This document shows positions 21,072-24,262 of a DNA stretch of 59,199 nucleotides, piece by piece. Positions within the stretch are counted from its first letter, which is position 1. The number at the start of each line of letters is the position of its first letter. The notes beneath the pieces are model-generated. The model was given only the letters and a program-made list of their open reading frames with translations. It was not told the origin of the DNA and made no database searches. This DNA comes from Ruminococcus sp. (GTDB lineage: Bacteria > Bacillota > Clostridia > Oscillospirales > Ruminococcaceae): NCBI GenBank assembly GCA_017542125.1, contig JAFXXU010000047.1:1-59199 (forward strand), in the 5' to 3' direction. The position numbers and the translations under genes were made by a program.

Positions 21072-22262
21072 TCAAAGCATTGTTTTCAGCTTGTCCAGCA
21101 CCTTGTGGGCAGCCTCGTCCTTGGACATTATGGGCAGCTCCTCTACGGCGCCGGCCGTTATAAGTGTGAGGATGTTGGTATCCACCCCGAAGCCCGCGCC
21201 CTCGGTGCGAATGGAATTTGCGCAGATCATATCGCAGTTCTTGCTCTCCAGCTTGCGGCGGGAGTTTTCAAGGACGTTATCGGTCTCCATCGAAAAGCCG
21301 CAGAGCAGCTGACCCTCGCCCTTGTTCTGGCCCAGAGTTTTCAGTATATCCTTGGTGCGGCAGAGCTGGATGTTCAGCTCACCGTCCTTCTTTTTCAGCT
21401 TGCTGTCGGCAACGGTCACGGGGGTGTAATCCGAAACGGCTGCCGCCTTTATGATGATATCCTGCTGCGGGGCTCTTACGGTGACGGCCTCGAACATCTC
21501 CGCCGCCGAGCCGACTCTTACCACCTCGCAGAACATAGGCATCTCCACCTCTGCGTGGGCGCAGACGAGAGTGACCTCGGCTCCCCTTCTTGCGGCAGCC
21601 TTTGCAAGGGCTATACCCATCTTCCCGCTGGAATGGTTGGTAATGAACCGCACAGGGTCAATGGGCTCCCTGGTGGCGCCGGCGGTGACGAGTATCTTCT
21701 TCCCGGCGAGATCCTTCTCAAAGGCGATCTCCTGCAGGACATACTCCACCAGCACGCTTTCGTCAGGCATACGCCCGTCGCCGATATCGCCGTTGGCAAG
21801 CATACCTCTGTCGGCGCTGATGATGCCGTAGCCGTAGGAGGCCAGCTTTTTTATATTGTCCTCGACTATGGGGTTATGGAGCATATTGTGGTTCATCGCG
21901 GGGGAGACCAGCTTCTTGCAGGGGCAGGCCATTACCGTGGTGGTAAGCATATCGTCTGCGATGCCGCCGGCTATCTTGCCTATGACATTTGCCGAGGCAG
22001 GGGCTATCAGGACTATATCCGCAGCCTTAGCCAGGGCAACGTGCTCGACGCTGTACTGGAAGTTGCGGTCAAAGGTGTCGATGAGGCACTTGTGGTTCGT
22101 AAGGGTCTCAAAGGTTATGGGATTTATGAAATTGGCAGCGTTGCGGGTCATCAGCACCTGTACGTCCGCCCCCAGCTTTATCAGCATCCTGGCCGCATTA
22201 GCCATCTTATAAGCCGCGATAGAGCCTGTTACCGCCAGAACTACCGTCTTCCCTTTAAGCAT
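21072..22262 (-). CDS. coaBC: Bifunctional phosphopantothenoylcysteine synthetase/decarboxylase
   Basis: The two-domain enzyme couples 4'-phosphopantothenate to cysteine (CoaB, C-terminal) and decarboxylates the product to 4'-phosphopantetheine (CoaC, N-terminal flavoprotein). CoaC motifs are GSIAAYK, VEHVALAKAAD with its active His, and SPAMNHNM. CoaB begins near residue 190 with KILVTAGATREPIDPVRFIT and includes KKDGELNIQL with the conserved Lys. The 396 residues match the family. It is divergent from the S component and coaX, which puts two further CoA-pathway functions next door. Confidence 0.94.
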   Translation of the reverse strand: MLKGKTVVLAVTGSIAAYKMANAARMLIKLGADVQVLMTRNAANFINPITFETLTNHKCLIDTFDRNFQYSVEHVALAKAADIVLIAPASANVIGKIAGGIADDMLTTTVMACPCKKLVSPAMNHNMLHNPIVEDNIKKLASYGYGIISADRGMLANGDIGDGRMPDESVLVEYVLQEIAFEKDLAGKKILVTAGATREPIDPVRFITNHSSGKMGIALAKAAARRGAEVTLVCAHAEVEMPMFCEVVRVGSAAEMFEAVTVRAPQQDIIIKAAAVSDYTPVTVADSKLKKKDGELNIQLCRTKDILKTLGQNKGEGQLLCGFSMETDNVLENSRRKLESKNCDMICANSIRTEGAGFGVDTNILTLITAGAVEELPIMSKDEAAHKVLDKLKTML

Positions 22263-22331: not shown

Positions 22332-22419
22332 CCCGGAGGGCAGATCGGCAAAGCCGCTGTTTTCCCCTGTAAAACATATATTTTCCAAAATATTAACAGC
22401 ATTTTCATATATTTTATGA

Positions 22420-22571
22420 TATAATAGTTTCGGCAGAAAGTCTGCGGACTAAAACGCGCCGAGAGCAGGTATCCCGACAGGGAGCCCGACCCTCACGGAA
22501 GGCGCAGAGCCCGGGGCCCTGCCGCTGTATTGTATCCCCTCCGGGGAATAATAACAAAGGAGGTTTTCGTT
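22420..22571 (+). promoter_or_regulatory. -10 box and structured leader (candidate riboswitch) of the ECF S-component gene
   Basis: A -10 TATAAT (22420-22425) puts the transcript start near 22431, exactly at a closing stem CGGCAG (22431-22436) / CTGCCG (22519-22524). Inside are AGTC-TGCG-GACT (22440-22451), GCGCC (22456-22460) / GGCGC (22501-22505) and TCCC-GACA-GGGA (22472-22483). After the closing stem, CCTCC near 22539 is complementary to the GGAGG ribosome site 20 bases later, which would allow translational control. I could not assign it to a known class: it lacks the conserved cores of the THF, TPP, FMN and cobalamin riboswitches. The strong nested structure argues for a ligand-binding or protein-binding leader. 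Confidence 0.55.
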
Positions 22572-23429
22572 ATGAAAACAAAGTCGCTTATCAAGACCCG
22601 TCAGCTGGTGATCCTCGGAATGATGACCGCCCTGGTGCTCATCTTCTCCCTGACGCCCATAGGCTCAATACCCATAGGTCCCCTCTCCATCACCCTGAAC
22701 GTCATCCCCGTAGCTGTCGCCGCTGTTGCCATAGGCCCTGCGGGCGGCGCCATCATCGGCGGAGTTTTCGGTATCTTCAGCTTTCTGCAGTGCTTCGGAG
22801 TGGGCGTACCCAGCGCCATGGGTGAGATACTCGTAAACATCAACCCTTTCCTTGCATTCATCCAGCGCTTTATCCCCAGGCTCCTGGACGGCTTCCTGGT
22901 GGGCATCATCTTCAAGGTGATATCCTCGCTGAAAAACGTCCGCAGCTATTATGTGATCACGGGCATTGTCAGCGCACTCTTCGGCTTTGCGCTGTTTATG
23001 TCTGGGCTGTTCCTTATCAACTACGACTCTAACGGCAAATACAAGATGAACGACGCTATGCGCGACTTCATCGGTGATCCCTCGCTGTTTATATTCACCT
23101 GTATATTCATTTCCCTGATCTGCTTCGGTCTCGGGTATCTGATCGTCAGCTCCAAGAAGCTGTCACAGAGGCAGGTGGCCTGCGCCATCACCGGCTTCTG
23201 CACCGCTCTGCTCAATACCATATTCTTTATGTCGGCGCTGGTGATCCTCTTCGGAAACACCGACTATATGAAGGGCCTTATGGACGGCAAGAACGTTATC
23301 GTATTCATAGTCACCTTCGTTGGCGTAAACGCCCTCTTTGAGATGATAACCACCACGCTCATCACCGCTGCGGTGGGCTCGGCGCTCTTCCGTGCTAAGC
23401 TTATCGGCAGCAGCGAGACTTCAAAATAA
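22572..23429 (+). CDS. ECF transporter S component, probably for pantothenate
   Basis: The 285-residue integral membrane protein starts with a basic stretch, then the helix RQLVILGMMTALVLIFSLTP and the S-component hallmark GPAGGAIIGGVFGIFSF, with about six helices in total. It binds a vitamin and works with a shared EcfA-EcfA'-EcfT module that is not in this window. Neighbouring coaX (20 bases downstream) and divergent coaBC point to pantothenate, as in PanT; the substrate is inferred from context. It has a longer middle loop (YDSNGKYKMNDAMRDFIG) than minimal S components. AAAGGAGG precedes ATG 22572. Confidence 0.82.
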   Translation: MKTKSLIKTRQLVILGMMTALVLIFSLTPIGSIPIGPLSITLNVIPVAVAAVAIGPAGGAIIGGVFGIFSFLQCFGVGVPSAMGEILVNINPFLAFIQRFIPRLLDGFLVGIIFKVISSLKNVRSYYVITGIVSALFGFALFMSGLFLINYDSNGKYKMNDAMRDFIGDPSLFIFTCIFISLICFGLGYLIVSSKKLSQRQVACAITGFCTALLNTIFFMSALVILFGNTDYMKGLMDGKNVIVFIVTFVGVNALFEMITTTLITAAVGSALFRAKLIGSSETSK

Positions 23430-23448: not shown

Positions 23449-24216
23449 ATGATACTTGCCGTTGACATCGGAAACACAAACATCGTCCTGGGCTGCTGCG
23501 ATGAGGGAAAGATCCTGTTCCGCGAGAGGATCTCCACCAACCGCATAGCCACCGACCTTGAATATGCCTCGCTGTTCCGCAGCGCTCTCGATATGAACTC
23601 CCTCGACCCCAAGGATATCACCGGAGGGATAATCTCATCGGTAGTTCCCGGAGTTACGGGGACGGTGAAGAAGGCTGTGGAGAAGCTCTCGGGCATCACC
23701 CCCATGACCGTGGGTCCCGGGGTAAAAACGGGTCTCAGCATTATGATCGACAACCCCGCTACCCTGGGCAGCGACCTCGTTGTGGGTGCCGTGGCTGCCA
23801 TAAACGAGTACCCCGTGCCCCAGATAATCATTGATATGGGCACTGCCACCACTTTCTCGGTGATCGACAGCAAGCGCAATTTCCTGGGCGGCATCATAAT
23901 GACCGGCCTGGCAGTATCCTCCGAGGCGCTGACCAGCAGGACCTCCCAGCTGCCCCGCATAGCCTTTGATCCCCCGAAGAAGGTCATCGGCACCAACACC
24001 GTTGATTCCATGAAGAGCGGTCTGATGTACGGCACGGCGGGAGCCATCGAGGGCTTCATCAGGCGTATTGAAAGCGAGCTGGGCGAGAAATGCACGGTGA
24101 TCGCCACCGGCGGTCTGGCCTCCACCGTATGCCACCTCTGCGACTGCGATATGATCCTCGACGACGATCTGCTGCTGAAGGGTCTTATGATAATCTACAA
24201 CAAGAACAATCACTGA
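23449..24216 (+). CDS. coaX: Type III pantothenate kinase
   Basis: The enzyme phosphorylates pantothenate, the first step of CoA synthesis; type III forms resist CoA feedback. Motifs are VDIGNTNIVLG (phosphate binding), GPGVKTGLSI, IIDMGTATTFSVID and an FLGGIIMTGL segment. ATG 23449 with GGGGAGG upstream gives 255 residues, the normal size. It shares a transcript with the upstream S component, linking uptake and phosphorylation of the same vitamin. Confidence 0.95.
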   Translation: MILAVDIGNTNIVLGCCDEGKILFRERISTNRIATDLEYASLFRSALDMNSLDPKDITGGIISSVVPGVTGTVKKAVEKLSGITPMTVGPGVKTGLSIMIDNPATLGSDLVVGAVAAINEYPVPQIIIDMGTATTFSVIDSKRNFLGGIIMTGLAVSSEALTSRTSQLPRIAFDPPKKVIGTNTVDSMKSGLMYGTAGAIEGFIRRIESELGEKCTVIATGGLASTVCHLCDCDMILDDDLLLKGLMIIYNKNNH

Positions 24217-24223
24217 CAAAAAT

Positions 24224-24262
24224 GCCCGAAGGCGTCGCGCTGACGCTTTCGGGCTTAGTTTT
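24224..24262. terminator. Terminator between coaX and the Asp/Ser-rich lipoprotein
   Basis: GCCCGAAGGCGTC pairs with GACGCTTTCGGGC and is followed by TTAGTTTTTT; A-rich sequence on the left could serve the convergent gene. Confidence 0.85.

Follow-up and report, generated by a model that had tools for sequence, protein, structure and literature searches.

A probable divergent pan motif in the leader of a Ruminococcus panT-coaX operon

Known pan elements and the panT-coaX leader

A 2010 study described the pan motif 5' of panB, panC, and genes for aspartate decarboxylase (accessible part of Weinberg et al. 2010, PMC2864571), and its Rfam family, RF01749, is also named in the accessible part of an RNA-seq paper (PMC5670726). 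The motif is a stem with two conserved bulged adenosines that mostly occurs in tandem in the 5' leaders of pantothenate/CoA-pathway operons, with a purine tail after the second hairpin. We analyzed a stretch of 59,199 nucleotides from Ruminococcus sp. (contig JAFXXU010000047.1, hereafter the window), in which the leader of the panT-coaX operon has all of these features, with the bulges at the same spacing (Table 1). In contrast, in the branch to which the window belongs, the second hairpin is of an AU- or GC-rich 'UGY-RYUGY' form, where RF01749 frequently has 'CCGCUUGG'. Also, in this branch often a single hairpin is detected, the hairpin heads uptake genes and adjoins a Shine-Dalgarno sequence rather than a terminator, and the Rfam model does not report it. 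We propose that the panT-coaX operon is controlled by its leader through a divergent, tandem form of the pan motif, and we put the probability of this at about three in four. Because the Rfam cut-off is not reached, we keep the leader out of RF01749 in Rfam's sense and call it a divergent pan-motif variant.

The THF riboswitch (RF01831) is another vitamin element that occurs near an ECF S component. In one locus (L260:2392-2496, 63.1 bits) it lies near a second ECF-like gene, 3' of an ECF S component gene that is headed by a pan site, so two vitamin elements may control neighboring ECF genes there. No THF riboswitch was reported in the window's leader, however, at E up to 10.

The leader (22431-22571, about 140 nt) lies between a TATAAT box and the gene for an ECF transporter S component. 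The original prediction, which placed a leader here before a vitamin ECF S component and coaX, agrees with this box and with the matches of the two genes to PF12822 and PF03309. Among solved chains, the S component comes closest to 4rfs_S (E = 7.9e-11) and 6zg3_C (E = 4.4e-7), which we take to be from pantothenate ECF complexes; the protein has no NCBIfam match. (A pantothenate transporter structure from 2014 is cited in the accessible part of PMC12570885.) The intergenic region between panT-coaX and the divergent coaBC is 309 bp. At the loci found by the pattern scan described below, coaBC is, among the matches listed, sometimes divergent as in the window and sometimes 3' of coaX.

Table 1. 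Features of the panT-coaX locus, in positions of the window
Feature	Position	Strand	Basis
Promoter region	22393..22425	+	Consensus match only: scan TTAACA (from 22393) and TATGAT (ending 22420); perfect TATAAT at 22420-22425
5' transcript end	22431..22445	+	Local hairpin GCAGA/TCTGC, 22433-22437 with 22441-22445
Alternative closing stem	CGGCAG 22431-22436 with CTGCCG 22519-22524	+	Sequence, folding
Pan hairpin 1	22463..22492	+	Bulged A at 22471 (5' side) and 22489 (3' side); two A.C mismatches; geometry rule scan, model R1 rank 4, covariation
Pan hairpin 2	22526..22556	+	UGU-AUUGU-A-UCCCC...GGGGA-AUAAU-A-ACA; bulged A at 22534 and 22553; geometry rule scan, model R1 rank 1, covariation
Shine-Dalgarno GGAGG	22559..22563	+	Sequence; 2 nt past hairpin 2, start codon 8 nt on
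ECF transporter S component, PanT-like	22572..23429	+	PF12822, E 1.1e-15
coaX, type III pantothenate kinase	23449..24216	+	PF03309, E 7.4e-64; NF009855
Intrinsic-terminator-like hairpin, 3' of coaX	24224..24254	+	Sequence scan
coaBC, divergent neighbor, same pathway	21072..22262	-	TIGR00521

The folding energy of the leader is modestly unusual (−54.4 kcal/mol, z = −1.84, with 10 of 200 shuffles equally stable) and is, by itself, weak evidence. The minimum-energy fold includes hairpin 2 with both bulges present. The closing stem from which the transcript had been predicted to start can form in the window, but it stands out (p of about 0.1 or less against 300 shuffles) in just 4 of 13 same-genus leaders, the window included. 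We rejected it as a conserved core, as it is not general among these leaders. The local hairpin at the 5' end stands out (p below 0.05) in 5 of the 13, again including the window. (For two of the 13 leaders, L007 and L041, the scripted −10 box was judged wrong by eye.)

Hairpin geometry, model matches, and covariation

The upstream regions of orthologues share a block immediately 5' of the Shine-Dalgarno sequence. Close relatives have UGUAUUGUAUCCC...GGGAAUAAUAACA in this block, and distant relatives have UGCGCUGUAUC...GAACAGCAGCA; the differences compensate for each other, which implies a stem with one bulged A per strand. (In a first-look DNA search, 15 of 150 genomes matched, counting the window's own, and loci L042 and L044 looked unrelated by eye.) The window's hairpins are built of 3 bp, a bulged A on the 3' side, 5 bp, a bulged A on the 5' side, and an inner stem, and this geometry is identical in the RF01749 consensus and in hairpins from Rfam pan loci. 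Hairpin 2 fits the geometry rule with no mismatches and hairpin 1 with the two A.C mismatches. If GU-A-UC and a short loop are also demanded, the rule has a single match on both strands of the window, at 22526.

Both hairpins are present in 13 of 16 same-genus genomes, the window's included. G011 and G015 have the second hairpin alone, and G001, the remaining genome, is outside the examined set. The geometry scan of orthologue leaders found no second hairpin in L015, L021, L023, and L024. At sites from the pattern scan, an upstream partner hairpin was detected in 13 of 78 cases among the matches listed (shuffled mean 0.8, maximum 2). The tandem arrangement of the pan motif is present in the window and is not general across the branch. 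In four loci (L009, L010, L011, and L174), the apical loop of the second hairpin is 23 to 40 nt long, with both bulged adenosines and most or all of the flanking pairs kept, so the loop seems unimportant.

An Rfam scan, which had been suggested as a check on the original prediction, gave no clear match to a known class: no family reached its cut-off anywhere in the window, and no plausible family was reported in the leader at E up to 10. In particular, the gathering cut-off of RF01749 (36.2 bits) was not reached in the window, and its model reported nothing at E up to 1 in the window's locus or in nine related new loci and matched none of 100 relatives. The laboratory strain of Bacillus subtilis that served as a control carries a pan element of its own. 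As the Rfam model matched none of the relatives, it could not settle the identity of the leader; we attribute its silence to its missing this branch.

Model R1 was built from 27 hairpins that were hand-picked, from about 40, at 20 Rfam pan loci in genomes outside the window's class (misfits and near-duplicates were omitted). With filters off and a search space of 118 kb, hairpin 2 was the best match in the window (13.6 bits, E = 0.89) and hairpin 1 the fourth best (11.3 bits, E = 3.4). Taken singly, these scores are weak. The chance that two of the best four matches in 118 kb would fall within one 141-nt leader is near 1e-5, by an estimate made post hoc. In 24 orthologue loci, at E up to 2, 23 of 26 R1 matches were the hairpins picked by the rule, with the top 16 among them, and R1 reported nothing in four of these loci (L012, L014, L018, and L025).

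Model R2 was built from 25 second hairpins. A search with it of 197 genomes of the order, from 111 genera, gave matches in 36 genomes and 25 genera; 30 of the 37 places were read as loci. When R1 was run on these 30 loci (the window among them) at E up to 1, 23 of its 24 matches were the R2 places, that is, hairpin 2. The 24th starts 66 nt upstream of an R2 place, which is the position expected for a tandem partner. R1 reported nothing at this threshold in 7 of the 30 loci, including the window's own copy. Conversely, of the seven R2 matches on 20 canonical pan loci, the best five are the canonical first hairpin, and R2 found nothing on pan in the remaining 15 loci.

These matches bear on whether the leader could belong to a new RNA class, unrelated to pan, that arrived by convergence at a hairpin with two bulged adenosines before pantothenate genes. 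The silence of the Rfam model on the window, the nine related loci, and the 100 relatives would fit with convergence, as would the reach of R2 to 5 of 20 canonical loci. However, bulge positions and helix lengths are alike, the models match in both directions, and gene contexts overlap, as discussed below. An independent origin is thus unlikely, and we consider a separate class the most improbable of the alternatives discussed here.

Compensatory changes are also consistent with a divergent pan motif. In the second hairpins of 25 orthologues (set A2, without the long-looped L009, L010, and L011) and the first hairpins of 13 same-genus leaders (set A3), both of which were cut by a rule that demands most of the pairing and an A at both bulges and whose bulge columns are therefore conserved by construction, 98.5% and 95.1% of cells are paired, respectively, with two-sided changes at 7 of 11 pairs in each set. 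In the 30 R2 matches (set A5, 29 distinct), which were fitted to a model, 99.7% of cells are paired, 7 of 11 pairs again show two-sided changes, and both bulges are A in 30 of 30. Given the rule and the fitting, these pairing figures lean towards the structure. The Rfam pan set (A1) behaves in the same way (93.9% of cells paired, two-sided changes at 9 of 11 pairs). In each of the three new sets, the scores for pairing and for covariation were higher than in any of 500 shuffles, whereas further pair types were not clearly more numerous than in the shuffles. In the middle helix, several pairs show compensated variation.

The conserved pairing with compensatory changes argues that the pairing is more than chance. 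Conserved base pairing with covariation, as in the pan motif, is present here, and the structural conservation upstream of orthologues on which the original prediction had been made to depend is borne out. Its assignment of the leader to an unassigned riboswitch class is not: the geometry, the R1 and R2 matches, the covariation, and the gene context all point to a divergent pan motif.

Gene context of the new branch and of canonical pan sites

A pattern scan of genome contigs, which was not tied to any gene, found at least 119 stretches, of which 80 are among the matches listed. (The pattern requires GGAG within 2 nt of the hairpin, and its choice of purines and pyrimidines favors pairing.) Of the 80 listed, 75 are in clostridia-named genomes; the others are three labeled 'Bacterium', one Paenibacillaceae MAG, and one Porticoccus MAG. 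The matches listed include [Clostridium] asparagiforme, Lacrimispora amygdalina, Acetivibrio ethanolgignens, Neglectibacter timonensis, and Fournierella massiliensis. The same pattern, run on viral contigs as a specificity control, found 1 stretch.

At 79 of the 80 pattern loci (L159 ends too near the hairpin for an ORF of 30 amino acids), the downstream ORF could be classified, and among these matches listed, 77 are ECF S components, one is a Pan_kinase (coaX, in L100), and one is a DUF2489 protein. The last is presumably that of the Porticoccus locus (L133), a chance match that was kept in this count. Similarly, in 30 of 30 R2 loci, an ORF starts within 40 nt and reads by eye as an ECF S component. 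The window's hairpins head panT-coaX and not synthesis genes; in G015, of the same genus, the hairpin is followed by panT-panB-panC-panD-coaX (genes named from their translations, and panC also by profile). So, the branch does occur upstream of a pantothenate-synthesis operon, as expected for pan, by way of G015, and canonical pan sites also occur before ECF S components.

To describe the canonical context we used 64 of 70 listed RF01749 places, all of them over the cut-off, in a 149-genome sample of the phylum, with gene labels of our own from tblastn. The first gene after these 64 sites was DUF2520-like (40), panC (7), panB (5), an ECF S component (3), birA (2), or a BASS-type transporter (2), while three sites had no listed gene within 700 nt and two had none at all. 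(By eye, the two are followed by panD in L277 and by a small cysteine-rich protein in L236.) The commonest first gene, a Rossmann-type gene that we presume is rightly named DUF2520, lies upstream of panB or panC. Within about 5 kb, an ECF S component was found near 8 of the 64 sites and a downstream coaX near 15. As the downstream genes overlap, canonical and new sites share targets. In L260, L263, and L274, canonical pan lies directly before an ECF S component, followed in L274 by coaX, which is the gene order of the window; these three sites differ from the window in being above the RF01749 cut-off and in other classes of the phylum. This ECF context is not named in the accessible part of the 2010 description (PMC2864571). 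We found no convincing candidate for an autoregulated regulator gene behind the canonical pan sites.

Some canonical loci have additional genes. Two of them (L249, G231:C36:1500-6600, and L281, G191:C88:25000-30100) have a canonical pan site, an amidohydrolase-like gene, birA, an ECF S component, and coaX. The amidohydrolase-like gene reads by eye as the N-acyl-amino-acid deacylase type and is an extra member of the pantothenate operon. In L276 (G155:C13:16300-21400), panT-coaX is separated from the pan site by a gene that looks by eye like bioY, so pan control may extend to a gene for biotin uptake.

The frequent presence of coaX raises the possibility that CoaX, which is dimeric and encoded in the operon, is a moonlighting RNA-binding regulator. 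Besides the canonical sites mentioned above, the matches listed include 54 pattern loci, of 80, in which the fetched stretch has coaX on the same strand, either before or after the hairpin. Another argument is that type III pantothenate kinases are not known to be feedback-inhibited by CoA, so supply would need to be controlled elsewhere. However, 3 of 64 pan-bearing genomes of the phylum sample (G166, G192, and G244) have no detectable coaX, and two of these are 97-98% complete. Also, coaX is common regardless of pan: 74 of 85 pan-free genomes have it and 11 do not. CoaX does not seem to be strictly required, an obligatory role for it as the regulator is disfavored, and we consider a regulatory CoaX improbable.

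Regulatory output and candidate signal

Canonical and new sites appear to differ in their output. With our own finder, a terminator was found within 130 nt of 44 of 64 canonical sites, and in 27 the canonical purine tail pairs over at least 5 nt with the 5' arm of the terminator (G-U pairs were allowed and there was no control). Among the matches listed, a terminator was found within 60 nt of none of 79 pattern sites (we excluded L133), but since the pattern demands GGAG, this absence and the adjacency of the Shine-Dalgarno sequence in the pattern set follow largely from the pattern itself. A fairer sample is given by the R2 loci, and there an SD-like purine run comes directly after the hairpin (GGAG in 29 of 30 loci and AGGGGG in L089). 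Because hairpin 2 adjoins the Shine-Dalgarno sequence, translational control of the uptake genes is probable. In the simplest reading, a single sensor has two outputs: it attenuates transcription at synthesis operons and occludes the Shine-Dalgarno sequence here.

The original prediction invoked a different mask, in which a CCTCC would pair with GGAGG. This idea fails, as the CCTCC sits in the variable loop of hairpin 2 and is not conserved: it is present in 1 of 25 second hairpins of orthologues (the window's own) and in or near the hairpin at 1 of the same 79 pattern sites among the matches listed.

The purine run in the R2 loci would also be expected if the conserved hairpin were a ribosome-standby or mRNA-stabilizing structure with no specific partner. 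(In the pattern loci, the run is demanded by the pattern.) But a structural spacer needs neither the two bulged adenosines that are present throughout A5 nor a tandem partner, and it would not keep to one pathway, as 78 of 79 pattern ORFs do among the matches listed. We therefore consider a mere spacer very improbable.

To explain how a divergent pan motif could control panT-coaX, we propose that each hairpin offers a trans-acting factor two bulged adenosines, five base pairs apart and on opposite strands. The factor would most likely be a protein that reports the supply of pantothenate or CoA; we favor a protein because what is conserved is one short stem, which lacks a conserved pocket and is often detected singly. 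When the vitamin is plentiful, the factor would keep hairpin 2 closed. As the 3' strand of the closed hairpin ends 2 nt before GGAGG, loading of the 30S subunit would be blocked, and less transporter and kinase would be made. When the vitamin is scarce, hairpin 2 would be free of the factor and may be weak enough to melt.

Alternatively, the same pan-type RNA could be a true riboswitch, in which the ligand (pantothenate, a phosphorylated intermediate, or CoA) is bound directly by the pair of hairpins or by one of them, so that the RNA closes over the Shine-Dalgarno sequence. The pathway context is exactly right for this, and CoA is listed as a cofactor without a known riboswitch in the accessible part of a 2022 review (PMC9971707). 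(A term look-up did not find 'riboswitch' in the accessible text of PMC11487621 or PMC12570885.) However, conservation is limited to about 30 nt and includes neither a loop nor a junction; several pairs of the middle helix vary with compensation; and at most pattern sites among the matches listed a single hairpin was detected. The element looks more like a protein operator, an idea that the 2010 authors had raised as well (accessible part of PMC2864571). We consider a riboswitch unlikely. Of the original prediction, a cis-regulatory RNA of the pantothenate/CoA pathway is well supported, while direct sensing of a metabolite would hold under the riboswitch reading and the class is not an unassigned one.

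A broader proposal, to which we give somewhat less than even odds, is that the minimal unit of a general RNA-based sensor of pantothenate/CoA status is a single hairpin of about 31 nt, with two bulged adenosines, that is widespread among gut bacteria of the Ruminococcus/Oscillospiraceae and Lachnospiraceae kinds. This unit would switch the translation of vitamin B5 uptake genes directly or via one dedicated protein. If so, no earlier system of this type has been described for the uptake of vitamin B5, within the literature that we searched, and in synthesis operons the pan element would be the same device with a terminator as its output. Our literature search, whose coverage leaves out most subscription journals, found among the papers listed none that names a partner of the pan motif and no publication of this branch. 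The divergent pan motif also implies that a large branch in gut Clostridia is overlooked by the Rfam pan model, and it predicts that vitamin B5 uptake in gut Clostridia is controlled at translation. A short hairpin that adjoins the Shine-Dalgarno sequence should lend itself readily to reporter, pull-down, and probing experiments.

Finally, the pathway genes that accompany the hairpin suggest what the signal might be. Neither panB nor panC was found in the window's genome, and as this genome is 90.5% complete, their absence is likely but not certain. Among 100 relatives searched, panC was found in 8. Because the hairpin is kept where panB and panC were not found, the signal is probably pantothenate or a later intermediate on the way to CoA, rather than a biosynthetic intermediate, and in this way the branch narrows the search for the partner of pan. 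The branch is not restricted to auxotrophs, however, since panC is present in three of the genomes that carry the hairpin (G015, G043, and G098).
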